Part shown: piece after piece, positions 406 through 20,796 of the stretch
How the letters are laid out: every line of letters begins with the position of its first letter
Position numbering within the stretch: the stretch's first letter is position 1
NCBI GenBank assembly: GCA_005798905.1
Contig: SYIK01000006.1
Location: 1-64,000, forward strand
From: Bacteroidota bacterium
Lineage (GTDB): Bacteria > Bacteroidota > Bacteroidia > Chitinophagales > Chitinophagaceae
Direction of reading: 5' to 3'
Length of the DNA: 64,000 nt
The notes under the pieces: model-generated
What the model saw: the letters and a program-made list of their open reading frames with translations, nothing else
Told to the model about the DNA's origin: nothing
Databases searched by the model: none
Made by a program: the position numbers and the translations under genes

Positions 406-536
406 AAAATAGTTTATATTCGAAAGTTCGGATATAGTTGGGTTTTTTATGTGATGAAACCTTTCGAAATTTTGAATATCGATATAAACAATATTTATCT
501 GGAAATGCTTATTATTCAACCAAAACAATACAAATT

Positions 537-3500
537 ATGTATTTAGCTTTTCTTTCTAAATCCTTCTTCAAACAAGGCGGGTTTTTATCAAAACCGATTC
601 GGATTATGAAACTTGCTACATTTTTATTAATCGCTGGTTCTATCCAGGTTAGTGCAAATGTTATGGAAGTTAACGCATCGCCACTGTTTGAAAAAACAGC
701 CATTGAGATAACTGGTAGAGTTACTTCAAGTTCTGGCGAACCTTTAGTTAGCGCATCAATTACTGTTAAAGGCAGTAAGACTGGGGTGGTAACTGATGCA
801 GGTGGTTATTTTTCAATTACTGTTCCAGACGATGCAGTATTGATAATAAGCTCTGTTGGTTATGAACCTCAGGAAGTTTCTGTAAAAGGGAAAAAAGTGA
901 TTAATGTATCACTTCAGTTATCTGAAAATGTTCAAGATGCTGTAGTAGTAATTGGTTATGGTACAGCAAGTAAAAGAGATTTGACGGGTTCAATTGTAAA
1001 ATTGAGCGGAAAAGAAGTGTCAGATAAACCCAATATTAATCCTGTGGCTTCTTTACAAGGAAAAGTTACCGGATTAACTGTTGTGAATTCTGGTACACCT
1101 GGGCAAGAGCCAGATATTCGGATAAGAGGAACAAATAGTCTTGGTGGTGTAAGACCTCTTTATCTTGTTGATGGCATTTTTAATGATAATGTTGGATTTT
1201 TAAATCCTAATGATATTGAATCTATAGAAGTATTAAAAGATCCTTCTTCTCTCGCTATTTTTGGTGTTCGTGGTGCGAATGGAGTTATTGCCATTACTAC
1301 AAAAAAAGCAAAACAAGGTCAAGTAAATATAAATTTCAATACAACATATAGTTCAAAAAAATTAGTTGATAAAATAGCAATGGTGAATGCAGCTGAGTTT
1401 AAGACACTTTTTGAGGAAGAACAAACAAATCTTGGTATTACTGGTGCTGAACGGTTTAATTTTACTCCATGGACAGGTAATACTGATTGGGTTGATGAAA
1501 TGACAAGGACTGGGCTTATGGTTTCAAACAATCTTAGCGTATCTACAGCTACTGAAAGAAATAAATTCTATTTTGGCTTTGGACATACAAATGAAGAAGG
1601 CGTTATCAAACATCAACAGCTTCGTAAATGGACACTAAGCCTGAATGATGAAGTAAAAGTTGGTAAAAATGTAAAAATAGGATTTACATTAAATGGATCA
1701 AGTCAAAAAAATCCTTTCAGTTGGGCAAATGGTTTATTGTTTACTGCTCGCCGAGTTTTGCCAATTACTCCAGTATATGATGAGGCACATGGCGCATACA
1801 ACAATCTTGCAAAACAATCAAGTGAAATGGTAAATCCTGTTTGGGAACTTGAACACAATTGGGATAAGCAATTGTCTTATGAAAATAGAATGGTTGGAAG
1901 TATTTTTACCGAAATCAACTTTCTTAATTATTTCAATTTCAGGTCTACACTTTATGCCGATATGTCAAATATAGAAAGTCGTTCTTATACGCCTATCGAC
2001 AGCCTTTATGATTTAGCTGATAATAAAACATTTTATCATGCAAGCTATAACAAGACTAGTGTATCTCAAAGTAATATGAGATATAATAAATTTCAGCAAG
2101 ATCATATTTTAACATTTAAGAAAAACTTTAATGATCATGGCCTATCAGCAATAGGAGGATTTACTACTTACTATAATGATTATCATGGATTATTCGCATC
2201 TGTAAAGCAATCGCAAACAGGTTTGCCAATCCCAAACAATAAGCGATTTTGGTATATTGATAATGGTTTTGGAGATAAGTCGACCAAAATTTCTTCTTCA
2301 GGCCAATGGGAAAAGGCAACAGTTTCTAGCTTATTCCGGTTATTATATAATTACAAAGGAAAATATATGCTGAATGCATCTTACCGCCGTGATTTATCTT
2401 CAGCATGGAGGCAAGATTATGGTAACCAAGGGCAAAATTTTTATGCAGTTGGTGCAGCTTGGGATATCAGCAAGGAAGACTTTTTTAAAGATCAAGATGT
2501 GTTTGATTACGTGAAACTTAAGGGAAGTGTAGGTCTTTTGGGAGTTCAAAATACTTATGGATTTGATTATCCCGCATATCCTGCTTTATCTACCAATTCA
2601 AGTGCTGTTTTTGGAAATTTAATTGTTCCTGTATACAACGAAACTTATTTAGCAGATAAGAACTTGCATTGGGAAACAGTTAACGGAAAAGAAATTGGTG
2701 TTGAATTTGATATGTTTAAGAGAAGTCTACATGGTGAAATTAGTTATTATCATAAAACAACAAATGACCTAATAGCATTAATTAATGCAGGAGGTGGTCG
2801 TTCTACGCTAACAAATATTGGCAAAATGAGGAACGAAGGTGTTGAAATTCTTGTAGGCTACAATAAGCAGGTTTCAAAAGATTTCAACCTAAGCGTTACT
2901 GGAAACATCACTACTTTCAAGAATTTGTTTGATGAATCAACTTTTCAATCAGGGTTTGATGAGCAGCGTGCAAACAGAACTGTAGCTGGGTATCCTATTG
3001 GTTCTTTCTGGGGGTATATAGTAGAAGGAGTATATCAGAGTTATGCAGATAAACTAGCTTCTCCAGTAATGAATTTGGGAAACAGTTATGGTCCTGGAGA
3101 TTTGAAATATAAAGATGTAAATGGAGATGGGGTTATTACTACAGATGACAGAACTGTAATTGGAAATCCAACACCTGATTATACGTACGGAGGTAACATT
3201 TCATTTAAATATAAAAGACTTGATTTTGGCGTTGATTTGCAAGGCGTATATGGTAATGAAGTTTACAGATATTGGGGTAGTTCTGAATTGCCTTACACAA
3301 AGTTCAACTATGGAAAATTTAAGATGGATCGCTGGCATGGTGAAGGAACATCTAACTGGGAGCCAATCTTAGGAGATAATCATACAACCAACAGACTTCC
3401 TTCAACTTATGGAATTGAAGATGGTAGTTATTTCCGTATCAGAAATCTACAGATTGGGTATAGTTTCAATTCTGGAGTTTTGAATAAAGCTCATATAAAA

Positions 3501-3659
3501 AGTATGAGGGCGTTTTTGAATATTCAAAATTTAAAAACATGGAAAAATAATTCAGGATACTCACCTGATTTTGGAGGTTCTCCAACAAGCTTTGGAATTG
3601 ATGATGGAACAAACCCTGTACCTAAAGTAATTTCTGCTGGTATTAATATTAATTTCTAA
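537..3659 (+). CDS. susC: SusC/RagA-type TonB-dependent outer-membrane receptor
   Basis: Outer-membrane transporter that imports oligosaccharides with TonB energy and forms a lidded pair with SusD. About 1040 residues, normal for the family. In order: a basic N-terminal extension and hydrophobic signal segment (about 24-42), a carboxypeptidase-D regulatory-like beta domain (about 58-135, beginning ITGRV), a plug domain (about 140-255, with VVVIGYGT and RIRGTNSLGG), then the barrel ending in a C-terminal INF. Frame is open from a TTG at 438, but I prefer the ATG at 537: the basic stretch plus MKLATFLLIAG is typical for Chitinophagaceae SusC proteins. ATG 606 is the alternative. susD follows after 20 bases. 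The substrate, a beta-glucan fragment, is inferred from the neighbouring hydrolases only. Confidence 0.93.
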   Translation: MYLAFLSKSFFKQGGFLSKPIRIMKLATFLLIAGSIQVSANVMEVNASPLFEKTAIEITGRVTSSSGEPLVSASITVKGSKTGVVTDAGGYFSITVPDDAVLIISSVGYEPQEVSVKGKKVINVSLQLSENVQDAVVVIGYGTASKRDLTGSIVKLSGKEVSDKPNINPVASLQGKVTGLTVVNSGTPGQEPDIRIRGTNSLGGVRPLYLVDGIFNDNVGFLNPNDIESIEVLKDPSSLAIFGVRGANGVIAITTKKAKQGQVNINFNTTYSSKKLVDKIAMVNAAEFKTLFEEEQTNLGITGAERFNFTPWTGNTDWVDEMTRTGLMVSNNLSVSTATERNKFYFGFGHTNEEGVIKHQQLRKWTLSLNDEVKVGKNVKIGFTLNGSSQKNPFSWANGLLFTARRVLPITPVYDEAHGAYNNLAKQSSEMVNPVWELEHNWDKQLSYENRMVGSIFTEINFLNYFNFRSTLYADMSNIESRSYTPIDSLYDLADNKTFYHASYNKTSVSQSNMRYNKFQQDHILTFKKNFNDHGLSAIGGFTTYYNDYHGLFASVKQSQTGLPIPNNKRFWYIDNGFGDKSTKISSSGQWEKATVSSLFRLLYNYKGKYMLNASYRRDLSSAWRQDYGNQGQNFYAVGAAWDISKEDFFKDQDVFDYVKLKGSVGLLGVQNTYGFDYPAYPALSTNSSAVFGNLIVPVYNETYLADKNLHWETVNGKEIGVEFDMFKRSLHGEISYYHKTTNDLIALINAGGGRSTLTNIGKMRNEGVEILVGYNKQVSKDFNLSVTGNITTFKNLFDESTFQSGFDEQRANRTVAGYPIGSFWGYIVEGVYQSYADKLASPVMNLGNSYGPGDLKYKDVNGDGVITTDDRTVIGNPTPDYTYGGNISFKYKRLDFGVDLQGVYGNEVYRYWGSSELPYTKFNYGKFKMDRWHGEGTSNWEPILGDNHTTNRLPSTYGIEDGSYFRIRNLQIGYSFNSGVLNKAHIKSMRAFLNIQNLKTWKNNSGYSPDFGGSPTSFGIDDGTNPVPKVISAGININF

Positions 3660-3679: not shown

Positions 3680-5179
3680 ATGAACAAATATTTTAAAAGT
3701 TGGATTATCCTGATTATAGCCGTACCGTTGTTGGCAACTATGTCAGGTGGCTGTAAGAAGTTTCTTGATAGGAAACCTTTACAGGCTTCTTTAGAAGATT
3801 TGAATCAAGGTGGTGTTGAAGGCCTTGTATTTGGATTGTATGGCGCATTTCTTGATCGAAATGGCTCTTACCATGCATTCAGTAGTATCCCTTGGTTTGC
3901 CTTAAATTCTTTTCGTGGCGATGATGCAATGAAAGGAAGTAGTGCTGCAGACGGAGCCGATTGGGGGGTAGTATATGATGAATTTCAATATCAGAAATCT
4001 CACTGGTCTTCTTCTATCTATTGGGATCAGCATTATAATTTAATCAACAAAGCTAATACAGCTATACAAACTGCCGATTCGCTTGGACTTAACGATCCAG
4101 CTTCAGTAATAAATGTTGCAGAAGCTAAATTTTTCAGAGCATTGGCCTATTTTGACTTAGTAAGAGTGTTTGGTGAAGTTCCTAAAATTGATTTTAGAGT
4201 TTATACTCCAAATGATTCCAAAAAACCAAAAGCAACAGTACCTCAAATATGGGCATTGATTGATGCGGATTTAACTGCAGGTATAACAAATCTTCCAGCA
4301 AACTGGAACAATCCATTAGGGAACAGTCGTTTCCCAGGCCGATTAACTAAATATACAGCAATGGCGCTTCAAGCAAAAGCCATGTTATATAGGAAAAATT
4401 GGGGAGGAGCACTAAGTCTTTGTCAGCAAATAATAAGCTCAGGTAATTATCAACTTTTATCAAGTTATAGTACAAATTTTAAAGTTGCTGGTGAAAACGG
4501 AAAAGAATCATTGTTTGAAATACAAGCTGATTTAGGAGCTAATGGAGTTCCGTATAATGGTCATGAATTTGGAGTAGAACAAGGTGTAAGAGGTTCTGGT
4601 GATTGGGATTTGGGCTGGGGTTGGAATGTACCAGAAATTGGACAGGAAGCTTCATATGAAACAGGTGATGCAAGAAGAGCTGCTACTATTCTTTATTCAG
4701 GGCAGGATGACGGATATGGTAAAACCGTTCCGGCATTTCCAACGGTGCCGAGATATTTCTGGAACAAAAAAGTTTATCCAGAACCAAGTATGCAGACATT
4801 TACTGGGAAAAAGAAAAATGAATGGCTCAACCATGTCTTGATTCGCTATGCAGATGTATTGCTTATGGCAGCAGAAGCAGCAAATGAGCTTTCAAATCAA
4901 GCAAGTGCAATAACATGGACAAATTTAGTTCGTAGTAGAGCTGGTCTTCCAAATCTAACATTCTCTACACAGGCACAACTAAGAGATGATATTAAAAAAG
5001 AAAGAAGGTCAGAGTTTGCTATGGAAGGTGAAAGGTTCTTTGATTTAGTAAGATGGGACGATGCTATTTCAGTATTAGGTGGTAGAGGTTATACTCCTTG
5101 TCATAAATACTATCCGCTTCCACAGTCAGCAATTGACTTTGCTGGAAGTAGTGTTTTAATACAAAATCCTTGTTGGTAA
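3680..5179 (+). CDS. susD: SusD/RagB-type starch-binding-like lipoprotein
   Basis: Surface glycan-binding lipoprotein that acts as the lid on the SusC partner. 499 residues, normal length. A lipobox-type signal peptide ends at Cys25 (SGGC). The N-terminal helical TPR-like half is followed by the C-terminal RagB/SusD domain, which has the family-typical stretch RYADVLLMAAEAANE and, near the end, GERFFDLVRWDD. It lies 20 bases after susC in the same operon, so the two surely work together. Nothing in the sequence fixes which sugar is bound. Confidence 0.93.
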   Translation: MNKYFKSWIILIIAVPLLATMSGGCKKFLDRKPLQASLEDLNQGGVEGLVFGLYGAFLDRNGSYHAFSSIPWFALNSFRGDDAMKGSSAADGADWGVVYDEFQYQKSHWSSSIYWDQHYNLINKANTAIQTADSLGLNDPASVINVAEAKFFRALAYFDLVRVFGEVPKIDFRVYTPNDSKKPKATVPQIWALIDADLTAGITNLPANWNNPLGNSRFPGRLTKYTAMALQAKAMLYRKNWGGALSLCQQIISSGNYQLLSSYSTNFKVAGENGKESLFEIQADLGANGVPYNGHEFGVEQGVRGSGDWDLGWGWNVPEIGQEASYETGDARRAATILYSGQDDGYGKTVPAFPTVPRYFWNKKVYPEPSMQTFTGKKKNEWLNHVLIRYADVLLMAAEAANELSNQASAITWTNLVRSRAGLPNLTFSTQAQLRDDIKKERRSEFAMEGERFFDLVRWDDAISVLGGRGYTPCHKYYPLPQSAIDFAGSSVLIQNPCW

Positions 5180-5200: not shown

Positions 5201-6064
5201 ATGAAAAATAATTTAATTAAAAAAATAAGTTTTGCAGCTTTCATCTTAATATTCGCAGTGTCTTGTCAAAAAATGAATAGGCCTGCATTGGGTGATTACC
5301 CAAAAGATAGTAACCCTCCAGGAGGACCATTAAAGTTTTACGCAGCATTTAATGGTACATCTTCTGATCCATTAAGAAATGCTGTTGATAGTGTAAAGGC
5401 AAATTTTGCTGCTAGCAATCCACTAGCAATTATAAATGGTATTTCCGGAAAAGGAGTTCAGGGAAAGCTTGATAAAGCAATAAAATATTCATCAGCAAAC
5501 GATTGGGCAAATTCTACCAGCATGACAATTGCTTTCTGGCTAAAAAATACTCCTTGGTCTGGAGGTCCTGGATTTGTATTTAATCTTACAATGAAGGATC
5601 ATTGGGCAAACGGTGTTGCTTGGATGCTTATTGAAGACCAAGGACAGAGCAGTACATCATCTGCCGCAGTAAAATTTGTACTGCAGGATCAGTGGTTCGA
5701 ATTTGTAGGCCCCAATATTTTTAATAAGCCATTGCTTGATGGTAATTGGCATCATTTAGCTATTGCTTATGATGAAGCAACATCAAAGCTTACTTATTAT
5801 TTCGATGGACAAGCACTTACAGGTCTTGCTGCAAATCTGACTAATGTTAAAAACAACGGTAATCCAAGAGGTAAATTAAACTTAAAAGCAAGCGATGGAA
5901 GCGCAGGTCAATTTGTTTTTGGAGGATGGAACAAACATGCCGGTATTAGTGGTCCTGGGGATGGCTGGATTCAAGGTTTTAATGGAGGTTTAGATCAGTT
6001 GAGACTTTATGGAAAAGCCTTGAGTTCATCAGAGGTACTAGCTTTATATAATAGTAAATTATAG
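5201..6064 (+). CDS. LamG-like (concanavalin A fold) lipoprotein, probable surface glycan-binding protein
   Basis: 287-residue predicted lipoprotein with the acylated Cys at 22 (FAVSC). After a short linker the mature part is one LamG/concanavalin A-like jelly roll (about 50-285), with typical elements such as SMTIAFWLKN, DGNWHHLAIAYD and LDQLRLYGKALSSSEV. It has no recognisable catalytic residues. The gene follows susD by 21 bases and is the last of that operon before an intrinsic terminator. This is the usual position of the third, cell-surface glycan-binding protein (SusE/SusF or SGBP role). The fold is well supported; the binding role is inference from position. Confidence 0.8.
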   Translation: MKNNLIKKISFAAFILIFAVSCQKMNRPALGDYPKDSNPPGGPLKFYAAFNGTSSDPLRNAVDSVKANFAASNPLAIINGISGKGVQGKLDKAIKYSSANDWANSTSMTIAFWLKNTPWSGGPGFVFNLTMKDHWANGVAWMLIEDQGQSSTSSAAVKFVLQDQWFEFVGPNIFNKPLLDGNWHHLAIAYDEATSKLTYYFDGQALTGLAANLTNVKNNGNPRGKLNLKASDGSAGQFVFGGWNKHAGISGPGDGWIQGFNGGLDQLRLYGKALSSSEVLALYNSKL

Positions 6065-6163: not shown

Positions 6164-9100
6164 ATGCGGTTTAAATCTCAGGTGATTGTTATACTTATTC
6201 TCGTTCTTAGTATTTCTTGTAATATAGGTAAGGAAAGTAAGTTCAAGAGTTTATCTTCTTCCAGTACCAATATTAATTTTGTAAATAAGCCAGAGTCTCA
6301 TAAACTATTTAACATTCTATACTACCTCTATTACTACAATGGTGGTGGAGTAGCTACTGGTGATATAAACAATGATGGACTTACAGACTTATTTTTCACA
6401 GCTAATAACAAAGGTGGAAATAAATTGTATCTAAATAAAGGAGATTTCAAATTTGAAGATATTACAGAAAAAGCAGGTGTGTCAGGTAACTCGGACTGGT
6501 GCAGTGGAGTAACAATGACTGATATTAATGGCGATGGCTTTCTTGATATTTATGTTTCCGTTGTTGCTGGTTCATGGGAATTAAAGGGACACAATGAATT
6601 ATACATTAATAATGGCAACAATACATTTGTAGAAAAATCAGTCGAATATGGGTTAGATATTTCAGGACTATCTACACAAGCAGCCTTTTTTGATTATGAT
6701 CATGATGGTGATCTTGATTGTTATATTCTCCGGCACTCCAAAAAACCGCATGCCAATATTGTGGACACATCAAACAGAAGAAATATAGACTCTCTGGCAG
6801 GCGATAAACTATTTCGAAACGAACTTAATAATGGTAGAAAAAAATTTACAGATGTTTCAACCTCGGCGGGAATTTATCAAAGCAGTCTCGGGTATGGGCT
6901 TGGCATCGCCATTGCAGACCTTAACAACGATGGATGGGAAGATATTTATATTGGTAATGATTTTCATGAAAATGATTACTACTATGTAAATAAAGGAGAT
7001 GGAATTTTTAAAGAAAGTAGTGCTGACCACTTTAGGCATTACAGCCGCTTTAGCATGGGAAATGACATTGCCGATTATAACAACGACGGGCAATTAGATT
7101 TGGTAACAGTTGACATGCTTCCTCCAGATGAAAAGGTTTTGAAAACCTATGGGAGCGATGAAAATCCTGATATTTATAAAGTAAAACTTGAAATTCAGGG
7201 GTATCAGAAGCAATATTCAAAAAATAGTCTTCAGCGAAACAATGGAAGCGGAATTAGTTTTAGCGAAACATCACTGATGAGTGGTGTTTCAGCTACTGAC
7301 TGGAGTTGGGCACCCTTGTTTGCCGATTTTGACAATGACTCTAAAAAAGATTTGTTTATTAGCAGCGGAATAGTGAAAAGGCCCGTTGATTTGGATTATA
7401 TTCGGTTTGTTTCTGATCTTGAAATGAAAAAAGAATTCAATAGCTCCGATGAATATGACCAGGAAACTATTGATGCAATGCCTGATGGTGCTTCTAACCC
7501 CTTTCTTTTTAAAGGAGACGGAAAATTTTCTTTTACAGATGTGAGTAAAGAATGGGGAACTGAAAAATTGAAAGGATATTTTAATGGAGCGGCTTATGCC
7601 GACTTAGATAATGATGGCGACCTTGATATTGTAATGAATTCCTTGAATGCAGAGGCTGTTGTTTTAAAAAACACTTCCCCTGTATCAAATTATCTTCAGA
7701 TTTCTTTTCTTGGGGATAGTTTCAACAGGTTTGGTATTGGTGCAAAAATGTACTTATTTACAGAAGGGAAACTGCAATACCAACAGTTGATGTTAACAAG
7801 AGGGTTTGAATCTTCTGTTGAGCCACGCCTTCATTTTGGATTAGCCGAGCAGAAAATTGTTGACAGTATTTTAATAGTTTGGCCTGATCAGCAGTATCAG
7901 TTGATTAAAAACATAGCAGCTGGCAAGCAATTAAATGTTAAAAAAAGTCAGTCAGCGGGAAAATTTATTTATTCAGAATGGTTTAAATCAAAGCAAGAAA
8001 TATTTCAGCAAATAAATTTATCTGACTGGAAGCATATTGAAAATGATTTTCTTGATTATAATGTGCAATATCTGATACCACATATGCAATCTACACGTGG
8101 TCCAAAAATAGCTGTGGCGGATATTAATGGCGATGGATTGGATGATATGTATGTTTGTGGTGCTAAAGACCAACCAGGAGCATTATTGATACAACAGCGT
8201 AGTGGCAATTTTTTACAAACTAATAAAGCATTATTAAAGGAGTTTGCAGAGAGTGAAGATGTGGATGCTATTTTCTTTGATGCGAACAATGATAAATATC
8301 CTGACCTATTGGTGGTTAGCGGAGGAAATGAAGTGCTTGAAAGTAGTAAACAAGGCCTTGATAGATTGTATTTGAATGATGGGAAAGGAAATTTTACAAA
8401 AGCAGAAGCTCCATTTTCCAACCAGTTTGAAAGCAAATCATGCGTAGCGGTAAGTGACTTTGATAAAGATGGAGATAACGATTTTTTCATTGGCAATCTT
8501 AGTAATCAAACTTCTTATGGCACTCCAGTTCACTCTTATTTTTATATAAATAGAGGCAATGGAAAATTTGATATGGCAGAAAGAAAAACCATTTTTCTGC
8601 AATCGATAGGAATGGTAACGTCCGCTGCTTTTGCCGACGTTGACAATAACACTTGGCCCGATCTTATTATTACTGGAGAATTTATGCCAGTGAAGATATT
8701 TTTGAATAAGCAAGGAGTTTTTAATGAGACTTCAATAGCCAATTCTACAGGCCTCTGGCAAAGTATTCATACCGCCGATGTAAATGGCGATGGACATACA
8801 GATATACTTGCCGGAAACTGGGGGCATAATAATAAACTGTGGAGTGGCAAAAATGGTCCTGTAAAACTTTATGTAAAAGATTTTGATAATAATGGTTCAA
8901 TTGAGCAAGTTCTTTGTTATACAATGAACGGAAAGGAATATACATTTCTTGCAAAGGATGAACTGGAAAGGTCGTTGCCAGTATTAAAAAAAGCGTATTT
9001 AAAATACAGCGATGTGGCAGGAAAAACCGTGCAGTACATGTTTTATGATCTGTTCAAAAATTATGCTGAACTGAAAGCCGAAACACTAAGTTCATCATGC

Positions 9101-9445
9101 TTCTTTAATGACGGCAAAGGAAATTTTTTAAGAATTGATCTTCCACAGGAATTACAACTTGCGCCGGTAATGACCTTTGCTTCGGCTGATAATGTGAAAA
9201 AAGGTTCATTTATTGCTGCAGGGAATTTTTATGGAGTAATACCATATGAAGGTAGGTATGACGCACTGCAGCCAACTATTTTTTCTTATAACTCAACAAC
9301 AAATAAATTTGATTCAGAATTTAATATTACATCCTTTGATGGCGAAGCAAGGGATATTAAATGGTTAAATAAGGCTGGAGGAAATAAAATAATGGCAATA
9401 GCAAGGAATAACAATACGTTACAGTTTTATAAGATTAATGAATAA
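6164..9445 (+). CDS. FG-GAP/VCBS repeat lipoprotein with UnbV/ASPIC domain
   Basis: 1093-residue predicted lipoprotein (Cys19, LSISC). Repeated FG-GAP/VCBS blades with DxNxDGxxD calcium-binding loops occur in two groups (about 55-440 and 640-930), for example DINNDGLTD, DINGDGFLD and DVNGDGHTD. Between them lies an UnbV/ASPIC domain (about 520-595, with GFESSVEPRLHFGL and IVWPDQ). Such proteins fold as beta-propellers and resemble the CRTAC1 family; they are probably surface-exposed binding proteins. No enzyme function is known to me. The next gene is a vanadium-haloperoxidase-like lipoprotein, a pairing that suggests a shared task. There is only a weak start context, but the lipoprotein signal fixes the ATG at 6164. 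Confidence 0.85.
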   Translation: MRFKSQVIVILILVLSISCNIGKESKFKSLSSSSTNINFVNKPESHKLFNILYYLYYYNGGGVATGDINNDGLTDLFFTANNKGGNKLYLNKGDFKFEDITEKAGVSGNSDWCSGVTMTDINGDGFLDIYVSVVAGSWELKGHNELYINNGNNTFVEKSVEYGLDISGLSTQAAFFDYDHDGDLDCYILRHSKKPHANIVDTSNRRNIDSLAGDKLFRNELNNGRKKFTDVSTSAGIYQSSLGYGLGIAIADLNNDGWEDIYIGNDFHENDYYYVNKGDGIFKESSADHFRHYSRFSMGNDIADYNNDGQLDLVTVDMLPPDEKVLKTYGSDENPDIYKVKLEIQGYQKQYSKNSLQRNNGSGISFSETSLMSGVSATDWSWAPLFADFDNDSKKDLFISSGIVKRPVDLDYIRFVSDLEMKKEFNSSDEYDQETIDAMPDGASNPFLFKGDGKFSFTDVSKEWGTEKLKGYFNGAAYADLDNDGDLDIVMNSLNAEAVVLKNTSPVSNYLQISFLGDSFNRFGIGAKMYLFTEGKLQYQQLMLTRGFESSVEPRLHFGLAEQKIVDSILIVWPDQQYQLIKNIAAGKQLNVKKSQSAGKFIYSEWFKSKQEIFQQINLSDWKHIENDFLDYNVQYLIPHMQSTRGPKIAVADINGDGLDDMYVCGAKDQPGALLIQQRSGNFLQTNKALLKEFAESEDVDAIFFDANNDKYPDLLVVSGGNEVLESSKQGLDRLYLNDGKGNFTKAEAPFSNQFESKSCVAVSDFDKDGDNDFFIGNLSNQTSYGTPVHSYFYINRGNGKFDMAERKTIFLQSIGMVTSAAFADVDNNTWPDLIITGEFMPVKIFLNKQGVFNETSIANSTGLWQSIHTADVNGDGHTDILAGNWGHNNKLWSGKNGPVKLYVKDFDNNGSIEQVLCYTMNGKEYTFLAKDELERSLPVLKKAYLKYSDVAGKTVQYMFYDLFKNYAELKAETLSSSCFFNDGKGNFLRIDLPQELQLAPVMTFASADNVKKGSFIAAGNFYGVIPYEGRYDALQPTIFSYNSTTNKFDSEFNITSFDGEARDIKWLNKAGGNKIMAIARNNNTLQFYKINE

Positions 9446-9473
9446 AATCATGCGTTGCTACTGATATGGAGAA

Positions 9474-9481
9474 TATCTTTG
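9474..9481 (+). promoter_or_regulatory. Candidate -7 promoter element before the haloperoxidase-like gene
   Basis: TATCTTTG matches the TAnnTTTG consensus exactly, 46 bases before the ATG at 9527. The -33 side is weak: a TTG at 9455-9457 is only 16 bases away. The gene may therefore have its own promoter besides readthrough from 6164. Confidence 0.35.
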
Positions 9482-9526
9482 CGCAAGAAGTAATTAAAAT
9501 TGTTTTATCATAGTCAAATTATATTT

Positions 9527-10849
9527 ATGAAAAAAATTTATACGATATTCCTGTTGTTTCTAACTATAGCAGGTTGTAATGAAAAGAAGGATTCATATTC
9601 AAATATATTTAACGATTCAAGTTTGTTTTCCAAAACTGTGAAAGAACTAAACTATGTGGTAATGCAGAACAACTTTCCTCCAATCATAGCTAGTCGAAAT
9701 TATACTTATGCCTGCATTGCTGCTTACGAAGTAGTAGCTATTGGCGATAGTAGGTTTCAATCATTGGCGGGGCAAATAAAACATTTATCAGCCATTCCTC
9801 AACAGGATACTTCAAATGTGAATTTTCAATTAGCGGCAATATTAGCTTTCTGTAAAACTGGCGAAGCTGTAACGTTCCCAGAAGGGAGTATGAAAGATTA
9901 CAGGACAGAAATTGACTCACTTGTTGAATTATCTGGCATGTCTTCTGATATAAAAAAAGCAACTAGGCAATTGGCCGATTCAGTAGCCAATCATATTCTT
10001 CGCTGGAGTAAAAAAGATAATTATGCCCAAACTCGCACAGCAGAAAAATTTCATATTAGACAAGAAGAAGGAAGATGGATTCCCACACCACCGGCTTATG
10101 CACAGGCATTGGAACCGCACTGGAATGAGATAAGACCCATGGTAATGGATAGTGGTAGCCAGTTTATACCTCCAAGACCTCCGAAGTTTGATATGAAAAA
10201 TAAAAATAGTGAATTTTATAAATGGGTAATGGAGGTTAAAAATGCAGGTGATAATCTCACTGATGAACAAAAACATATTGCTGAATTTTGGGATGACCTT
10301 GGAAACCGGACTATTGTGGAAGGCCATGTGATGTTTACATTCAAAAAATTTTCACCGCCAGGTCATTGGATGAACATTGTAGGTATTGCATGCAAAAAAG
10401 CTAATGCTGATTTTTCAAACACTGTGTACGCTTATGCAAAAACTGCCATTGCATCTTTTGATGCATTTATTCAGTGTTGGGATGAAAAGTTCCGGAGCAA
10501 TCTGCTTCGACCAGAAACGGCCATTAATAAATATATTGACCCCAATTGGAGGCCCTATCTTCAGACTCCGCCTTTCCCAGAATATACATGTGGACATAGT
10601 ACTGTTTCTTCGTCAGCGGCAGAGGCCCTTACCAATGTTTTTGGCGATAATTTTGCTTATATAGATAATTCTGAACTTGAGTTTGGTATAGCAAACCGAT
10701 CTTTCAGTTCGTTTCGCCAAGCAGCCCTTGAAAATAATTGGGCTAGATTTTATGGAGGTATTCATTATCATGGATCCTGTATTGTTAGCACTGAATATGG
10801 GAAGAAAGTTGGAGATCTTGTAAACGAACGATTAAAAATGAAAAAATAA
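9527..10849 (+). CDS. Vanadium-dependent haloperoxidase-like (PAP2 superfamily) lipoprotein
   Basis: 440-residue predicted lipoprotein (Cys17, TIAGC) of the PAP2/vanadium-haloperoxidase superfamily. The vanadate/phosphate-binding residues are in place: Lys321 and Arg328 in KFRSNLLRP, His357 in YTCGHST, Arg407 and the histidine His413 in RFYGGIHYH. Haloperoxidases of this type oxidise halide with peroxide; relatives are acid phosphatases, and sequence alone does not decide between the two. The frame is open from a TTG at 9500, but ATG 9527 begins the signal peptide exactly. It follows the FG-GAP/ASPIC gene. A weak 6-bp hairpin (10850-10855/10864-10869) before a T run follows the stop codon. 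Confidence 0.82.
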   Translation: MKKIYTIFLLFLTIAGCNEKKDSYSNIFNDSSLFSKTVKELNYVVMQNNFPPIIASRNYTYACIAAYEVVAIGDSRFQSLAGQIKHLSAIPQQDTSNVNFQLAAILAFCKTGEAVTFPEGSMKDYRTEIDSLVELSGMSSDIKKATRQLADSVANHILRWSKKDNYAQTRTAEKFHIRQEEGRWIPTPPAYAQALEPHWNEIRPMVMDSGSQFIPPRPPKFDMKNKNSEFYKWVMEVKNAGDNLTDEQKHIAEFWDDLGNRTIVEGHVMFTFKKFSPPGHWMNIVGIACKKANADFSNTVYAYAKTAIASFDAFIQCWDEKFRSNLLRPETAINKYIDPNWRPYLQTPPFPEYTCGHSTVSSSAAEALTNVFGDNFAYIDNSELEFGIANRSFSSFRQAALENNWARFYGGIHYHGSCIVSTEYGKKVGDLVNERLKMKK

Positions 10850-10976: not shown

Positions 10977-12677
10977 ATGAAAAACAGAGACATGAGAATA
11001 AAATTTCAGAAAAAATGTCTATTAATGGGAATGACTTTTTTTGCTGTCTTTATTTTCATTAGTGCAAATTGCAATAAAGAGAAATATCCAACACCTCCTC
11101 CGCCACCGTCTGCAAGTTTCTCAATATCCGATTGGTCGGTTGATGGGATTTCAGGGAAAACAGAATATAAAGGGACAGAACTTTTACCTCTGATAAGATT
11201 ATCATTTCCCCTCCCTATAAATAGGAGCTCAGCTGTTTCTAAAATAAGTTTTTTTGGGAATGCCAATGTAAACTTTACATACCAGAATGGGGATAGTGTG
11301 ATAATACTGCAGCCTACATCTCCACTGATGAACCTTGCTAGGTATAGTGTGTTTGTTGATACTGGTTTATTGTCTGTTAATGGAGGAAAATTACACAGCC
11401 AGGTAACTATAAAGCTGCTGACTCAATTAGATACTTCAGATAAATTCCCCATAATAAGCGATAACCAACTACTTGATAAAGTGCAGCAGCAAACATTCAA
11501 ATATTTTTGGGATTATGGTCATCCTGTTAGTGGTCTTGCTAGAGAAAGAAGCAATGCTACATCCGAAACGATTACATCGGGAGGCTCAGGTTTTGGTATT
11601 ATGGCAATACCAGTTGCAATTAGCCGAAATTTTATTACTAGAGCTAGTGGCTTACAAAGAATGCAAACCATTGTTTCATTTTTAAAAAACACAGCACAAA
11701 AATTTCACGGAGCTTTTCCGCACTGGCTAAATGGTACCACAGGTGCGGTTATTCCTTTTAGTACTTATGATAATGGAGCGGATTTAGTTGAAACTTCTTA
11801 CTTGATGGCGGGCCTGCTAACTGCAAGGCAATATTTCAATGGTGCCGATGCTATAGAAACTGCTTTAAGAGCTGATATAAATTCAATTTGGAATGCTGTA
11901 GAGTGGAGCTGGTTTCGACAAAATAATCAAAATGTTTTATATTGGCACTGGAGCTCCAACTATGGATGGCAAATGAATCATAAAATACAAGGATGGAATG
12001 AATGTCTTATTACTTACATCATGGCTGCGTCGTCCACCACATATGGTATTCCGCAGGTTGTATATAAAGAGGGGTTTGCTAGAAATGGGAGTATGCAAAA
12101 TGGAAGCACTTATTATGGCTACTCGTTGCCGCTTGGTCCTTCATACGGAGGTCCCCTATTTTGGGCACACTATTCATTTCTTGGGATTAATCCAAACGGC
12201 CTTAATGATACTTATGCCAATTATCAAATACAGGTAACCAATCATACTAAAATAAATTACCAATACTGCAAAGTGAATTCTGCCAATTGGTATGGATATA
12301 GCAGTAAATGTTGGGGGCTAACTGCAAGCGATGTGCCTGGCGGTTATAATGCCAATGAACCTAATAATGATATTGGTGTTATTTCGCCCACTGCAGCATT
12401 ATCATCATTCCCGTATACCCCTGCAGAAAGTATGGACGCATTGAAATTTTTCTATTATAAATTAGGGAATAAAATCTGGGGACCTTATGGTTTTTATGAT
12501 GCATTCAAATTAAATGATCCTTGGGTGGCCGATTCTTATTTAGCTATTGACCAAGGGCCAATTATAATTATGATAGAAAACTATCGGAGCGGATTAGTAT
12601 GGAATTTACTGACTAGTTGCCCGGAGGTGAAGAATGGTATGAAAAATGTTTTAGGGTTTACAGCACCTTATTTATGA
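10977..12677 (+). CDS. GH144-type endo-beta-1,2-glucanase-like lipoprotein
   Basis: 566 residues. A lipoprotein signal ends at Cys32 (ISANC) and is followed by a proline-rich linker (TPPPPPS), a bacterial Ig-like domain (about 45-148) and the large (alpha/alpha)6 catalytic domain (about 155-566). It matches the glucoamylase-like family that includes the GH144 endo-beta-1,2-glucanase of Chitinophaga pinensis. Acidic residues expected for that family are present: Asp269 and Glu272 in ADLVETSYLM and Glu342 in GWNECL. It should cut beta-1,2-glucan outside the cell; exact specificity is inferred from family resemblance. It lies 127 bases after the haloperoxidase-like gene and 13 bases before the GH43 gene, so it probably heads the operon 10977-18141. 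A second in-frame ATG at 10992 is possible. Confidence 0.8.
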   Translation: MKNRDMRIKFQKKCLLMGMTFFAVFIFISANCNKEKYPTPPPPPSASFSISDWSVDGISGKTEYKGTELLPLIRLSFPLPINRSSAVSKISFFGNANVNFTYQNGDSVIILQPTSPLMNLARYSVFVDTGLLSVNGGKLHSQVTIKLLTQLDTSDKFPIISDNQLLDKVQQQTFKYFWDYGHPVSGLARERSNATSETITSGGSGFGIMAIPVAISRNFITRASGLQRMQTIVSFLKNTAQKFHGAFPHWLNGTTGAVIPFSTYDNGADLVETSYLMAGLLTARQYFNGADAIETALRADINSIWNAVEWSWFRQNNQNVLYWHWSSNYGWQMNHKIQGWNECLITYIMAASSTTYGIPQVVYKEGFARNGSMQNGSTYYGYSLPLGPSYGGPLFWAHYSFLGINPNGLNDTYANYQIQVTNHTKINYQYCKVNSANWYGYSSKCWGLTASDVPGGYNANEPNNDIGVISPTAALSSFPYTPAESMDALKFFYYKLGNKIWGPYGFYDAFKLNDPWVADSYLAIDQGPIIIMIENYRSGLVWNLLTSCPEVKNGMKNVLGFTAPYL

Positions 12678-12690
12678 TAAAAAAATTAAA

Positions 12691-14484
12691 ATGATCTTGA
12701 CCAGAAAAACAATCGTTCTATTTTTTATATTGACAACATTTTCAGTTCATCAACTATTAGCGCAGGAAAGAACCTATTGTAATCCAATTAATATTGATTA
12801 TGGGTTTACCCCAATCCCTAATTTCACTCAGTGGGGAAAGCATCGAGCTACAGCCGATCCTGTAATTGTAAATTATAAAGGAGAGTATTATTTATTTAGC
12901 ACCAATCAATGGGGATATTGGTGGAGTAGTGATATGAGTAAATGGAATTTTGTTTCTAGGAAATTTTTGCGACAATGGAATGGATATATATATGATGAAC
13001 TCTGTGCACCTGCTGTTGGAATTGTTGGAGATACCATGCTTGTATTTGGCTCTACTTACACAAGAAAATTTACTTTATGGATGAGCACCAATCCAAAAGC
13101 GAATGATTGGAAACCGCTTATTGACAGTTTTGATATTGGTGGCTGGGACCCAGCATTTTTCACAGACGATGATGGCCGCTTTTATATGTATAATGGAAGC
13201 AGCAATGTATTTCCAGTGTATGGTGTGGAACTTAACAGAAAAACATTTCAACCTATTGGTACAAGGATGCCTATGCACTACCTGCAAAGTTGGCGCTATG
13301 GCTGGCAGCGTTTTGGTGAACACATGGATAACACATTTCTTGACCCCTTTATGGAGGGAGCATGGATGACCAAGCATAATGGTAAATATTATTTTCAATA
13401 TGGGGCGCCTGGTACAGAATTCAGCGGTTATGCAGATGGTGTAGTAGTGGGAAGTAAACCTTTGTTTGACGGGATAGAAACATTCTCTCAATCAGATCCA
13501 TTGAGTATGAAAGCGGGTGGTTTTGCAAAAGGGGCAGGGCATGGTGCAACATTTAAAGATAATTATGGTAACTATTGGCATACGAGTACAATTATACTTT
13601 CTGTAAAAAATAATTTCGAACGGCGTATCGGTATTTGGCCAGCAGGATTTGATAATGATGCTGTGATGTGGTGTAATACTTCTTTTGGTGATTATCCGCA
13701 TTGGTTGCCAGCACAAAATTATTATCAACTTCCTTATAAAAGCAACTTGATAAATGAAGGAGAAAAGACTTTTACGGGCTGGATGCTTTTGAACTATAAA
13801 AAACCAATCTCTGTTTCATCCACATTGGGAAGTTATTATGCCAATAATGCAAATGATGAAAGCATGAAAACATATTGGAGTGCTTCTACTGGAGATAAAG
13901 GCGAGTGGATTCAATCTGATTTGGGAAATTTATCTGTCGTGAATGCTTTACAAATAAATTATGCTGATCAAGATGTTGAATTTTTGGGTAAGCAAACCAA
14001 TATTTATCATCAGTATAAATTATATTATTCCTTAGATGGGAAAAAATGGGATTTGTTAATTGATAAAAGTAATAACAAAACAGATATTCCACATGATTAT
14101 GTTGAATTAGAAAAACCAGTTCAGGCGAGATTTATCAAACTGGAAAACATTCATATGCCAACTGGTAAATTTGCTATTAGTGGCTTGAGAGTTTTTGGGA
14201 ATGGAAATGGATTTAAGCCCGAGGCTGTAAAATCATTTATGGTACTACGTTCCGAAAAAGATAAACGTAGTGCTTGGATACGCTGGGGCCAAGTGGATAA
14301 TGCGTATGCGTATAATATTTACTATGGCATTGCACCAGATAAACTATATAACTGTGTAATGGTGTATGATTTGAACGAATACTGGTTTAAAGCGATGGAT
14401 AGTCAAAAGATATATTATTTCACAATTGAAGCTATTAATGAAAACGGTGTTTCAGAAAAAACTAAAACAATAAAAGTTGAATAA
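12691..14484 (+). CDS. GH43-type glycoside hydrolase with discoidin (F5/8C) and FnIII-like domains
   Basis: 597-residue secreted protein with a cleavable signal (ends near LLAQE). The N-terminal five-bladed propeller (about 25-360) carries the three acids of the GH43 clan: Asp56 (ADPVIV), Asp153 (GGWDPAFF) and Glu222 (DPFMEGAW). An F5/8 type C (CBM32-like) domain follows (about 375-505, with YWSASTGDKGEWIQSDLG), then a fibronectin-III-like module to the end. GH43 members cleave arabinosides, xylosides or galactans; in this beta-glucan setting the substrate is unclear. It ends inside the start of the SGNH gene, so the two are translationally coupled. Confidence 0.82.
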   Translation: MILTRKTIVLFFILTTFSVHQLLAQERTYCNPINIDYGFTPIPNFTQWGKHRATADPVIVNYKGEYYLFSTNQWGYWWSSDMSKWNFVSRKFLRQWNGYIYDELCAPAVGIVGDTMLVFGSTYTRKFTLWMSTNPKANDWKPLIDSFDIGGWDPAFFTDDDGRFYMYNGSSNVFPVYGVELNRKTFQPIGTRMPMHYLQSWRYGWQRFGEHMDNTFLDPFMEGAWMTKHNGKYYFQYGAPGTEFSGYADGVVVGSKPLFDGIETFSQSDPLSMKAGGFAKGAGHGATFKDNYGNYWHTSTIILSVKNNFERRIGIWPAGFDNDAVMWCNTSFGDYPHWLPAQNYYQLPYKSNLINEGEKTFTGWMLLNYKKPISVSSTLGSYYANNANDESMKTYWSASTGDKGEWIQSDLGNLSVVNALQINYADQDVEFLGKQTNIYHQYKLYYSLDGKKWDLLIDKSNNKTDIPHDYVELEKPVQARFIKLENIHMPTGKFAISGLRVFGNGNGFKPEAVKSFMVLRSEKDKRSAWIRWGQVDNAYAYNIYYGIAPDKLYNCVMVYDLNEYWFKAMDSQKIYYFTIEAINENGVSEKTKTIKVE

Positions 14485-15139
14485 GTATTGCTTTAGAACT
14501 GTAATCTTTTTATTGTTTGTAGTTTCATTTGCAACTGTGCAAGCCCAGCCCTTTGTTAATGAAATTGCTGCATTTAAAAGGCAGGATTCTATTTCGGTTC
14601 CTCCAAAAAATGCAATTCTTTTTGTAGGAAGTTCATCATTTACTAAGTGGACTGATGTTCAAGACTATTTCCCCAATCATAAGATCATCAATCGTGGTTT
14701 TGGAGGCTCATCCTTGCTAGATGTAATTTGCTATGCTAACATTATTATTTTTCCCTATCAGCCGAAACAAATAATCATTTACTGTGGCGAAAATGATTTT
14801 GCTGAAAACAATAATTTATATCCGTCGCAGGTGCTTGAACGGTTTAAGCAGTTGTTTTCATTAATCCGGCACCGGTATGAAAAAGTGCCTATCGCTTATA
14901 TATCTATGAAACCAAGCCCAAACCGGAGAAACTTGATGCCTAAATTTAATGTGGCCAATGTGATGATAAAAGAATTTTTAAAAAATGAAAAGCGGACAAT
15001 TTTTATAGATGTGTATCATGCCATGCTGAAAGAAGACGGGACACCTGCAGAAGATCTTTTTATAGAAGATAAATTACACATGAATGAAAAAGGGTATGTT
15101 GTTTGGCAAAAACTAATAAAACCAGTATTAAAAAAATAG
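14477..15139 (+). CDS. Secreted SGNH/GDSL hydrolase (carbohydrate esterase-like)
   Basis: 220 residues with a signal peptide cleaved near VQAQP. The SGNH blocks are present: nucleophile region FVGSSSF (Ser53 expected), GFGGSS (block II Gly), CGENDF (block III Asn) and DKLH (Asp198, His201). It probably removes acyl groups from a polysaccharide or oligosaccharide. The only start that keeps the signal peptide is TTG at 14477, which overlaps the last 8 bases of the GH43 gene. The DJ-1-like gene begins 3 bases after its stop. The substrate cannot be read from sequence. Confidence 0.82.
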   Translation: MNKYCFRTVIFLLFVVSFATVQAQPFVNEIAAFKRQDSISVPPKNAILFVGSSSFTKWTDVQDYFPNHKIINRGFGGSSLLDVICYANIIIFPYQPKQIIIYCGENDFAENNNLYPSQVLERFKQLFSLIRHRYEKVPIAYISMKPSPNRRNLMPKFNVANVMIKEFLKNEKRTIFIDVYHAMLKEDGTPAEDLFIEDKLHMNEKGYVVWQKLIKPVLKK

Positions 15140-15142: not shown

Positions 15143-15865
15143 ATGAAGAGAATATTAATTCCATTGCCAGATAAAGATTTTGACATCACCGAGGTTGCTG
15201 TACCGTGGAAATTGTTTTCACAGGAAAACTATGCTATCACATTTGCAACAGAAAATGGGAATAGAGCCTTTTGCGACCCGAAGTTGATTACGGGTATTAT
15301 TTTTGGGAAGTTAGGTGCAGAAAAAAAAGTAATTGGGTTTTACAGGGAGATGGAACAAGCAAAAGAATTTTTATATCCAATTAAATACAGTGATATACAA
15401 CCTGAAAATTTTGATGCATTGGTATTACCCGGTGGCCATGCACAGGGAATGAAACAATATCTTGAAAGTAAAATATTACAAGAACAAGTATTAAAGTTTT
15501 TCAAGTTAAACAAAATTATTGGAAGCATTTGTCATGGAAGTATTGTATTGGCAAGAACCATTGACCCAGTTACTGGGAAAAGTGTTGTGTACAATAGAAA
15601 ACTCACAGGGTTAACAAAATTTCTCGAAAGCATTGCTTATTATCTTACATTTTGGAAATTAGGAAAGTATTACCGTACATACTCAGAATATGTCCAGGAT
15701 GAAGTAAAGAGTTTTTTGTACGATAAAAGAAATTTTAAAACTGGTGGCAATCAGTTTAAACCCTACACATGTGTAGATGAAAACTTAGTTACAGCCCGTT
15801 GGCCAAAAGATGCATACTTGTTTGCAGAAACAATTATTAAAAAACTAAAATTTAAAACTCAATAG
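15143..15865 (+). CDS. DJ-1/PfpI family protein (type 1 glutamine amidotransferase-like)
   Basis: 240 residues, no signal peptide, so cytoplasmic. The nucleophile elbow is visible as GSICHGS with Cys130 followed by His131, preceded by the DALVLPGGHAQGM loop. The family contains proteases, glyoxalases, chaperones and stress proteins; the CHG motif does not choose among them. The C-terminal part (about 150-240) has the EVKSFLYDKRNF and VTARWPKDAY segments of the PfpI-like group. It sits in a tight operon, 3 bases after the SGNH gene and 2 bases before GH3. An intracellular role, for example on reactive carbonyls made during sugar breakdown, is a guess from context. Confidence 0.75.
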   Translation: MKRILIPLPDKDFDITEVAVPWKLFSQENYAITFATENGNRAFCDPKLITGIIFGKLGAEKKVIGFYREMEQAKEFLYPIKYSDIQPENFDALVLPGGHAQGMKQYLESKILQEQVLKFFKLNKIIGSICHGSIVLARTIDPVTGKSVVYNRKLTGLTKFLESIAYYLTFWKLGKYYRTYSEYVQDEVKSFLYDKRNFKTGGNQFKPYTCVDENLVTARWPKDAYLFAETIIKKLKFKTQ

Positions 15866-15867: not shown

Positions 15868-18141
15868 ATGGTAAGAAAAATTCTATTTTGTATATTTTCT
15901 TTTGTAGTACTGAATGTAAATGCACAGAATGCAAAAATGAAAACATTCATTGATGTACTGATGAAAAAAATGACCTTGGAGGAAAAGATAGGTCAATTGA
16001 ATTTACTTACACCAGGTGGCGGTATTGTCACTGGAGCAGTAGTAAGTAAGGATGTGGAGACTAAGATTTCAAATGGTCAGGTAGGAGGTTTGTTTGGTGT
16101 AATAGGTGAATCAAAAATACGACAAGCACAGGAATTAGCAGTAACTACCAGCCGTTTGAAAATTCCACTTATGTTTGGTTCTGATGTGATACATGGATAT
16201 AAAACTACTTTTCCAATTCCGCTTGGCCTTTCCTGCAGCTGGGATATGCAAATGATAGAACGCAGTGCAAGAATAGCTGCTACTGAGGCTACAGCAGATG
16301 GGTTGAACTGGGCTTTTTCTCCAATGGTGGATATAGCACGTGATCCTCGTTGGGGTCGAATTGCTGAAGGTGGTGGTGAGGACCCCTATCTTGGTTCACA
16401 GATAGCTAAAGCAATGATAACTGGGTACCAAAATGGGGATCTAAGCAAGGACAATACGTTGATGGCATGTGTTAAACATTTTGCACTATATGGAGCTGCT
16501 GAGGGTGGGCGTGATTATAATACAGTTGATATGAGTAGGGTGAGAATGTATAATGAGTATCTACCTCCTTACAAAGCAGCTGTGGATGCTGGTACAGGAA
16601 GTGTGATGAGTTCATTTAATGTTATTGATGGCATTCCTGCTACTGGAAATAAATGGTTATTAACAGATCTACTTAGGAAAGAATGGGGTTTTAAAGGGAT
16701 GGTCGTTTCAGACTATACATCTGTAAATGAAATGATTGATCATGGTATGGGTGATTTACAGCAAGTTTCTGCACTGGCATTAAATGCAGGCCTAGACATG
16801 GATATGGTAGGGGAAGGATTTTTGACTACATTAAAAAAATCTCTTCAAGAAGGGAAGGTAAAATTGAAACAAATTGATGATGCTTGTAAAAGAATATTGG
16901 AAGCAAAATATAAATTGGGACTTTTTGATGACCCTTATAGGTACTGCAATGCAGAAAGGGCATTAAAGGAAATATTATCTTCTGACAAAAAAGTCGCAGC
17001 AAAGGAATTTGCTACAAACTCTTTTGTATTATTAAAGAATAGTAAAAATGTATTGCCTTTAAAAAAGTCAACAAACATTGCACTTATCGGGCCGCTGGCC
17101 AACGATAAAAGTAATATGCTTGGTACATGGGCTGTATCTGGTAATTCGGATTTTGCAATTCCTGTTTTGGAAGGGTTAAAAAATGCGACAGGTGGTGGCA
17201 TTAATATTCTTTATGCTAAAGGAGCAAATATTTCAGATGATACAAGCATTGCCAAAAAAGTAAATGTATTTGGTACAAGGATAGACATTGACAAACGTAA
17301 CCCACAGGAAATGATTGATGAAGCGACTAGCATTGCTGAACGTTCTGATGTTGTGGTTGTTGTGGTTGGTGAAGCATCCGAGATGAGCGGAGAATCTGCC
17401 AGTCGATCTTTGCTGCAAATTCCGTTGAGTCAGCAAAATCTTATTAAGGAATTAAAGAAAATCGGAAAACCATTAGTACTTGTCATTATGACGGGAAGGC
17501 CATTAACCCTTGGTATGGAAAATGAAATAGCGGATGCAATATTACTTACTTGGCATGCAGGACACGAGGCGGGCAATGCTATAGCAGATGTATTATTTGG
17601 TGATTTTAATCCTTCTGGTAAACTAACAACAAGTTTTCCAAAAAATGCAGGACAGGTGCCAATATATTACAATCATCTAAACACTGGGAGGCCTAATGCT
17701 GGAGATGAGTTTCAAAAATTTCGCAGTAATTATCTTGATGTGGAAAATAGCCCACTATTCCCTTTTGGTTATGGATTGAGTTATACTACATTTAATTATA
17801 GTGATTTAAAGTTGAGCGCAAATAAATTAAAACCTAATGAAACTTTAATGGCCAGTGTTACAGTTACTAATACCGGACATGTGTCGGGGAAAGAAACTGT
17901 ACAATTATATATTAGAGATTTAGTGGGTAGCATTGCAAGGCCTGTAAAAGAATTAAAGGGATTTCAAAAAATAGATTTACAAGCTGGTGAAAGTAAAACA
18001 GTGTCTTTTGCTATTACAACGAATGATTTAAAATTTTATAACAATAATTTGAAATATGATTGGGAAGCCGGTGAATTTGAAATTATGATTGGCACTGATT
18101 CTAAAAATATAAATAAAGGAAAGGTGCAATGGATAAAATAA
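15868..18141 (+). CDS. bglX: GH3 beta-glucosidase, BglX type
   Basis: 757-residue exported enzyme with signal peptide (ending near LNVNAQ). Domain order is GH3 N-terminal barrel (about 25-345), GH3 C-terminal alpha/beta sandwich (about 385-620) and fibronectin-III-like domain (about 660-740). The nucleophile is Asp282 in GMVVSDYTS. A likely acid/base is Glu509 in EMSGESASRS, as in BglX. It should release glucose from the short beta-glucans made by the endo-acting neighbours, in the periplasm. The gene closes the tight operon that starts at 10977, with GH16 100 bases further on. Linkage preference cannot be told from sequence. Confidence 0.92.
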   Translation: MVRKILFCIFSFVVLNVNAQNAKMKTFIDVLMKKMTLEEKIGQLNLLTPGGGIVTGAVVSKDVETKISNGQVGGLFGVIGESKIRQAQELAVTTSRLKIPLMFGSDVIHGYKTTFPIPLGLSCSWDMQMIERSARIAATEATADGLNWAFSPMVDIARDPRWGRIAEGGGEDPYLGSQIAKAMITGYQNGDLSKDNTLMACVKHFALYGAAEGGRDYNTVDMSRVRMYNEYLPPYKAAVDAGTGSVMSSFNVIDGIPATGNKWLLTDLLRKEWGFKGMVVSDYTSVNEMIDHGMGDLQQVSALALNAGLDMDMVGEGFLTTLKKSLQEGKVKLKQIDDACKRILEAKYKLGLFDDPYRYCNAERALKEILSSDKKVAAKEFATNSFVLLKNSKNVLPLKKSTNIALIGPLANDKSNMLGTWAVSGNSDFAIPVLEGLKNATGGGINILYAKGANISDDTSIAKKVNVFGTRIDIDKRNPQEMIDEATSIAERSDVVVVVVGEASEMSGESASRSLLQIPLSQQNLIKELKKIGKPLVLVIMTGRPLTLGMENEIADAILLTWHAGHEAGNAIADVLFGDFNPSGKLTTSFPKNAGQVPIYYNHLNTGRPNAGDEFQKFRSNYLDVENSPLFPFGYGLSYTTFNYSDLKLSANKLKPNETLMASVTVTNTGHVSGKETVQLYIRDLVGSIARPVKELKGFQKIDLQAGESKTVSFAITTNDLKFYNNNLKYDWEAGEFEIMIGTDSKNINKGKVQWIK

Positions 18142-19265: not shown

Positions 19266-19329
19266 TTATGACCTGCCCGAACCACACACCAGTCAATTTA
19301 TTTATCTAATTTATTTAATTATTCTTAAT

Positions 19330-20691: not shown

Positions 20692-20697
20692 AAATTA

Positions 20698-20729
20698 AAC
20701 TGCGTAAGGGGTAAAGACCTTACGCAGTT
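20698..20729. terminator. Intrinsic terminator between convergent genes
   Basis: A 12-bp perfect stem, aactgcgtaagg (20698-20709) with ccttacgcagtt (20718-20729), is followed by a T-rich run on the + strand. It ends trpB2 and may also serve the converging minus-strand operon that stops at 20797. Confidence 0.85.
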
Positions 20730-20796
20730 ATTTTTCTTCTTCTACAATTTTACTTTAGAAGAGGAAATGTTTAGTTACATATAAAAATTTAATGAA

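Follow-up and report, generated by a model that had tools for sequence, protein, structure and literature searches.

What might a homologue of the vanadium haloperoxidases (VHPOs) be doing next to a large FG-GAP/ASPIC lipoprotein in a polysaccharide utilization locus (PUL)? The question is raised by contig SYIK01000006.1 of a Bacteroidota bacterium from the family Chitinophagaceae (assembly GCA_005798905.1), whose positions 1 to 64,000, read on the forward strand, are hereafter called the window. An earlier note, made from the letters of this DNA alone, had placed an FG-GAP/ASPIC lipoprotein and a VHPO-like lipoprotein at 6164-10849, and both identities were borne out by Pfam, by phmmer matches to the PDB entries 4cit and 4usz, and by a lipobox rule. 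The pairing of these two genes is real and wide across the phylum Bacteroidota. As to what the pair does, we give roughly even chances to a surface-anchored enzyme of the ZgVIPO1 branch that would oxidise a halide, most likely iodide, with H2O2 and vanadate, a CRTAC1-like propeller being its partner.

The two proteins and the vanadate site

6164..9445, + strand: FG-GAP/ASPIC (UnbV) lipoprotein, 1093 amino acids (Pfam matches FG-GAP_3, FG-GAP and UnbV_ASPIC; structure model)
9527..10849, + strand: VHPO homologue of the Cys355 type, predicted lipoprotein, 440 amino acids (phmmer; structure model)

The VHPO open reading frame was called at 9500-10849 on the + strand, with 449 amino acids from an alternative TTG start; the ATG at 9527 (440 amino acids, the numbering used here) is the better start because the alignment with the PDB homologue begins at that Met. 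The N-termini of both proteins satisfy a loose, home-made lipobox rule, which 74 of 114 FG-GAP and 85 of 122 VHPO sequences tested also satisfy, counts probably lowered by start-codon errors. Each gene is present in one copy in this 1.86 Mb genome, and both are absent from the single same-genus genome among the surveyed family genomes. No natural fusion of the two was found among the sequences fetched, and a scan of the locus for consensus promoters and terminators gave counts not clearly above those of shuffled sequences.

Over residues 1-438, the VHPO homologue aligns by phmmer with ZgVIPO1 of Zobellia galactanivorans (4cit/4usz) at 43% identity (E 1.5e-118); neither Pfam nor NCBIfam gives a family match at E 0.001. 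Its AlphaFold model (pLDDT 89) matches 4usz and 4cit at TM 0.85-0.91, and these are followed in the fold search by other vanadium chloroperoxidases, with NapH1 (3w35/3w36) and the Curvularia enzyme (1vnc series) sharing the fold (TM ~0.6-0.7) and a comparable vanadate site but only 14-18% identity. The protein has the full-length homology and the fold expected of the bacterial vanadium iodoperoxidase (VIPO) branch. The vanadate-site residues Lys321, Arg328, His357, Arg407 and His413, named in the earlier note, are all present, as is Gly356. In an alignment of 123 sequences, from which the truncated fragment L045_2_1237 (lacking the motif) was omitted, Lys321, Arg328, His357 and His413 are found in 123/123, Arg407 in 122 and Gly356 in 120.

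The earlier note overlooked Cys355 and Ala406. Position 355 is the Ser of the SGH motif in ZgVIPO1 and in 68 of the 70 non-Cys rows (Ala in 2). The window VHPO has Cys there, as does every one of the 53 rows in its clade; since this Ser is missing, the window VHPO is classed as a variant rather than an ordinary member of the VIPO branch. Compared with ZgVIPO1, another Ser is replaced by Ala406 and a Val by Thr359, and both Thr359 and Ala406 are fixed in the 53 Cys355 rows, so that the change looks selected rather than due to decay. In the tree, 53 of 124 rows are of the Cys type and group as a single clade (SH-aLRT 99, by a quick method without bootstrap), and among the loci outside the family 36 of 37 VHPOs carry Ser at 355, the remaining one (L187) carrying Cys.

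The phosphatase role that the earlier note had considered did not fare well. A surface acid phosphatase, removing phosphate from glycans or sugar phosphates, is improbable here: from the PAP2 signature, which we take to be KX6RP ... PSGH ... SRX5HX3D, only KX6RP is intact, with CGH for SGH and ARX5HX3S for SRX5HX3D (Ala406 and Ser417 for Ser and Asp). Pfam PAP2 does not match the window VHPO, and acid phosphatases come far weaker than VHPOs in the fold search (E 2.8e-3 vs 2.3e-33), even though the fold core is common to acid phosphatases and an apo-VHPO is, by the title of 3bb0, able to catalyse dephosphorylation.

The model of the FG-GAP protein (mean pLDDT 78) is composed of two halves, a CRTAC1-like propeller with the ASPIC domain (residues 25-606) and a second propeller (610-1093). 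The first half aligns with murine CRTAC1 (9etn) at Z 40.1 and 2.6 Å over 461 residues, and its FG-GAP repeats, followed by the UnbV_ASPIC domain in a CRTAC1 fold, place it in the CRTAC1/ASPIC-UnbV family, from whose murine member it differs by the extra propeller and by a lipoprotein-like signal. A loose pattern recovers 12 DxDxDG-like calcium-loop motifs. The second propeller resembles a fungal aldos-2-ulose dehydratase at Z 29.9, somewhat over the unrelated WD propellers of the same list (Z 25-27), and a sequence profile gave this similarity no support.

Both the altered pocket and the second propeller bear on a serious rival to halide oxidation, which we regard as possible at clearly less than even chances: a VHPO fold with non-halogenating chemistry in the Cys355/Ala406 pocket, for example on oxidised or modified sugars of the PUL, with the second propeller participating. 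The fixation of Cys355, Thr359 and Ala406, the dehydratase similarity, the linkage of the clusters to GH65, trehalase or glucan hydrolases, and the presence among the fold matches of NapH3 (8cxl), a VHPO homologue titled in PDB as an alpha-hydroxyketone rearrangement enzyme, would all fit such a chemistry. It is weakened by the retention of every other vanadate residue, by the scores of the WD propellers and the silent profile, and by the wider Ser-type tree, within which an assayed iodoperoxidase falls.

Pairing in the family and across the phylum

Within the family, VHPO matches are found in 78 and FG-GAP matches in 92 of 147 genomes. Considering only strong matches, VHPOs occur in 75 genomes, FG-GAPs in 80 and both in 74, that is, 74 of the 75 genomes with a strong VHPO match also hold a strong FG-GAP match (these co-occurrence counts, like the Fisher tests, are not corrected for kinship). 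Six family genomes together hold 23 VHPO genes, of which 13 are less than 10 kb away from an ASPIC gene, compared with 0.62 expected from genome coverage, two genome sizes being rounded. With SusD chosen as the natural PUL control, the corresponding figure in the same genomes is 17 of 146 listed genes, from 239 matches (Fisher p 5e-6).

When 296 genomes of the phylum were searched with a profile, 78 proved to carry VHPO relatives, and 72 of these lie outside the family. Adjacency was mapped for the best VHPO match in 38 of these 72, mostly the best-scoring ones: an FG-GAP gene is present inside the 20 kb locus in 30, upstream on the same strand within 5 kb in 29 and within 500 bp in 19, and several pairs overlap or stand less than 15 bp apart. 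The neighbourhood survey had been set beforehand as a test of the pair, which is thus conserved in other genomes, both in the six family genomes and beyond the family. In addition, 53 of 80 named loci offer 9 kb or more of upstream sequence, and these hold an FG-GAP gene in 36 cases, within 5 kb upstream in 29 and within 500 bp in 11; the 80 were partly selected for active-site residues, as the search patterns included [SA]R[FLM]YGGIH. One locus, L190 (70% G+C), was included through tblastn, and L197 and L198 were excluded from the adjacency count; the last two are frames of 1157 and 1065 amino acids in genome G188 with remote VHPO-like matches.

The VHPOs most similar to ZgVIPO1 (71-79% identity) were found in Muriicola (L167), Arenibacter palladensis (L169), Allomuricauda (L170) and Ulvibacterium (L175), and those of L167, L169 and L170 (71-74%) come after two FG-GAP genes.

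Two further observations concern VHPO relatives. In two genomes of one genus, a more distant relative lies between two ASPIC genes (G141:C1:1036198-1041130 and G058:C2:1517450-1522391). At L131:9107-11305 (732 amino acids), a VHPO is joined to a membrane N-terminus of ~300 amino acids, which we read as possibly DoxX-like, with an internal lipobox-like Cys.

The glucan locus and the history of the pair

In the window, the pair is embedded in a PUL with tandem susC-susD genes and co-oriented glycoside hydrolases (GHs), in the same orientation as the pair:

438..3659, + strand: SusC-like TonB-dependent transporter (open reading frame, Pfam, NCBIfam)
3680..5179, + strand: SusD-like lipoprotein (open reading frame, Pfam)
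5201..6064, + strand: Laminin_G_3 (ConA-like) putative glycan-binding protein (Pfam), conserved in the PUL
10977..12677, + strand: PF10091 Glycoamylase-like hydrolase (Pfam), presumably GH144-type
12691..14484, + strand: GH43 with F5/8 type C domain (Pfam)
14477..15139, + strand: GDSL esterase-like (profile match)
15143..15865, + strand: DJ-1/PfpI-like (profile match)
15868..18141, + strand: GH3, BglX-like beta-glucosidase (Pfam, NCBIfam)
18242..19078, + strand: GH16 (profile match)
23024..24469, + strand: GH30, parted from the main block by 19246-22862
24495..25958, + strand: GH30 (profile match)

Three genes, and not two as previously counted, stand between susCD and the hydrolases, since the LamG-like gene at 5201 precedes the pair. 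Past the GH16 gene and before the two GH30 genes, 19246-20691 encodes a PALP-family pyridoxal-phosphate enzyme. Further downstream, 28154-42891 is an exopolysaccharide or capsule locus with three Wzi-like proteins, SLBB/Poly_export, Wzz, glycosyltransferases, Wzy_C, a flippase and WecG.

Three arrangements recur within the family. The first is a glucan PUL with the order SusC-SusD-LamG-(heptahaem cytochrome c)-FGGAP-GH30-GH30-GH144, the cytochrome being optional. Among 20 loci selected by their FG-GAP gene (L079-L098), LamG is present in 19, the PF10091/GH144-type gene in 17, the cytochrome in 13 and GH30 in 12. A VHPO was found in 1 of these 20, where it lies ~12 kb away from the FG-GAP gene on the opposite strand; 0/20 have one in the PUL position. 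In the window and in L039, a VHPO directly follows the FG-GAP gene of a glucan PUL. In the second arrangement, a type A VHPO (54-76% identical to that of the window, mostly Cys) is accompanied by two FG-GAPs, GH65 and the small proteins C6, C9 and C13, sometimes together with a second, long VHPO and a trehalase. In the third, a Ser-type VHPO comes immediately after SusC-SusD-FGGAP. (The open reading frame caller skipped the VHPO of L077, picking 19 of 20.) The commoner homes of the VHPO are the SusC-SusD-FGGAP-FGGAP-(GH65)-VHPO cluster and SusC-SusD-FGGAP-VHPO; the glucan PUL regularly includes the FG-GAP gene and has the VHPO as an option. The placement of the pair inside a glycan locus, as earlier proposed, holds for the FG-GAP gene as a regular component, and not for the VHPO as a fixed one.

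Several companions of these clusters deserve mention. The cytochrome c, with seven CXXCH motifs in 15/15 copies, precedes the FG-GAP gene in the glucan PULs of the 13 loci above, L039 and L063, and is a second possible redox partner of the FG-GAP protein. It has no match in the genome of the window, in a search without positive control, and GH65 has none there either. The proteins C6 (~186 amino acids), C9 (~319) and C13 (~364) accompany the type A VHPO in L040-L060 and others; those submitted to Pfam gave no match, and visual inspection of C9 and C13 suggests outer-membrane barrels. The long VHPO (~516 amino acids; L040-L060, L101-L172) has a PAP2 match and mostly an ISGHST motif, and frequently follows the type A VHPO at a distance of one to three genes.

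In the gene phylogenies, the five glucan-PUL VHPOs (window, L039, L099, L100 and L102) form one clade (SH-aLRT 98), and the FG-GAPs beside them are intermixed with those of VHPO-less PULs, which forces at least 4 changes. Therefore either an early gain of the VHPO was followed by frequent losses, or the VHPO travelled between PULs as a dispensable component. The clade of PUL FG-GAPs has as its sister the FG-GAPs of Mucilaginibacter-type loci with GH65 and VHPO, and the latter in turn group with flavobacterial FG-GAPs directly preceding a VHPO (fasttree local supports 100 in both cases), suggesting from the tree that the PUL FG-GAP may descend from a VHPO-associated line.

This interspersion, together with the empty PUL position in the FG-GAP-selected loci, would fit a coincidence in which both families are simply common in PUL-rich genomes and their adjacency is functionless. 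Such a coincidence is nevertheless very improbable, because in six genomes VHPO genes lie near ASPIC genes more often than the SusD controls do, and because the pairing recurs throughout the phylum, in genes that overlap or are a few bases apart, and extends over several FG-GAP subfamilies.

Possible halide oxidation and the biology of the pair

If halide oxidation is the right reading, the VHPO would be anchored at the cell surface, bind vanadate and, during sugar feeding, use H2O2 in the oxidation of a halide, with iodide the likeliest. The FG-GAP/ASPIC propeller would bind calcium and, as a physical partner, might hold the VHPO at the SusCD platform or bind its substrate. In the window, the FG-GAP gene belongs to a beta-glucan PUL and is followed by a VHPO that is optional there and of the Cys355 type. 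The cell might benefit by keeping out competitors, disposing of peroxide or capturing iodine.

The available excerpt of one source lists iodide as the halogen of ZgVIPO1 (PMC8407142), and in that of another the Zobellia iodoperoxidase vIPO3 is up-regulated with Ascophyllum nodosum (PMC9296495). In Arenibacter sp. C-21, whose genome encodes five or more 4USZ homologues, iodine uptake requires glucose, oxygen and Ca2+, and a glucose oxidase and a haloperoxidase have been proposed to take part in it (PMC5064120). Its congener A. palladensis (L169), on which, rather than on the C-21 genome, our comparison was made, has the order FGGAP-FGGAP-VHPO with a VHPO 74% identical to ZgVIPO1; unlike the window, C-21 is marine and the VHPO of L169 is of the Ser type. 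By analogy, these reports are compatible with halide oxidation, without being a test of it.

Several observations weigh against this reading. The main reason for doubt is the replacement of the ZgVIPO1 Ser by Cys355, and of another Ser by Ala406, across the Cys clade, whose chemistry may therefore differ from that of ZgVIPO1; no halide, peroxide or vanadate data on Cys-type members were found in the literature. A search of the genome for a peroxide source identified none, turning up one GMC oxidoreductase, outside the contig of the window and with no neighbourhood link. Some relatives are recorded from groundwater, ponds or lichens, where iodide is scarce. The pairing also has its exceptions: 10 of the 23 VHPO genes in the six family genomes lie more than 10 kb from an ASPIC gene, among them near relatives of the VHPO in the window at distances above 60 kb, no FG-GAP is seen in 8 of the 38 loci mapped across the phylum, 17 of the 53 named loci with sufficient room hold none, and the VHPO nearest to ZgVIPO1 (L175, 79%) has none in its locus.

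In our literature search, which left most subscription papers outside, no paper joined a haloperoxidase with FG-GAP, with or without polysaccharide utilization, and none joined vanadium-dependent haloperoxidase, SusD and Bacteroidetes; in papers naming both haloperoxidase and polysaccharide utilization, the passages available do not mention FG-GAP, and the pairing may be published elsewhere. Neither an assigned role for the ASPIC/FG-GAP lipoproteins, abundant in Bacteroidota, nor a settled in vivo role for the bacterial vanadium iodoperoxidases was found in this literature.

A broader scheme, which we consider rather unlikely, would make SusC-SusD-FGGAP/ASPIC-VHPO a phylum-wide surface machine coupling sugar feeding to halogen chemistry. 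Peroxide from sugar oxidation would drive halide oxidation, calcium-binding propellers would hold the enzyme or capture the product, SusCD might import it, and the Cys355 clade would be a new type of vanadium-peroxidase active site adapted to low-halide habitats. If true, such a machine would explain why iodine uptake in Arenibacter depends on glucose and Ca2+.

The conserved pairing gives the FG-GAP/ASPIC lipoproteins and the VHPOs each a concrete, testable partner, and the Cys355 clade provides a natural variant for probing the role of the vanadate-site Ser. Judged from the sequences, the pairing hints at an unrecognised surface oxidation step, and if halide oxidation is true, the use of sugars would be tied to iodine or bromine cycling in non-marine bacteria too.

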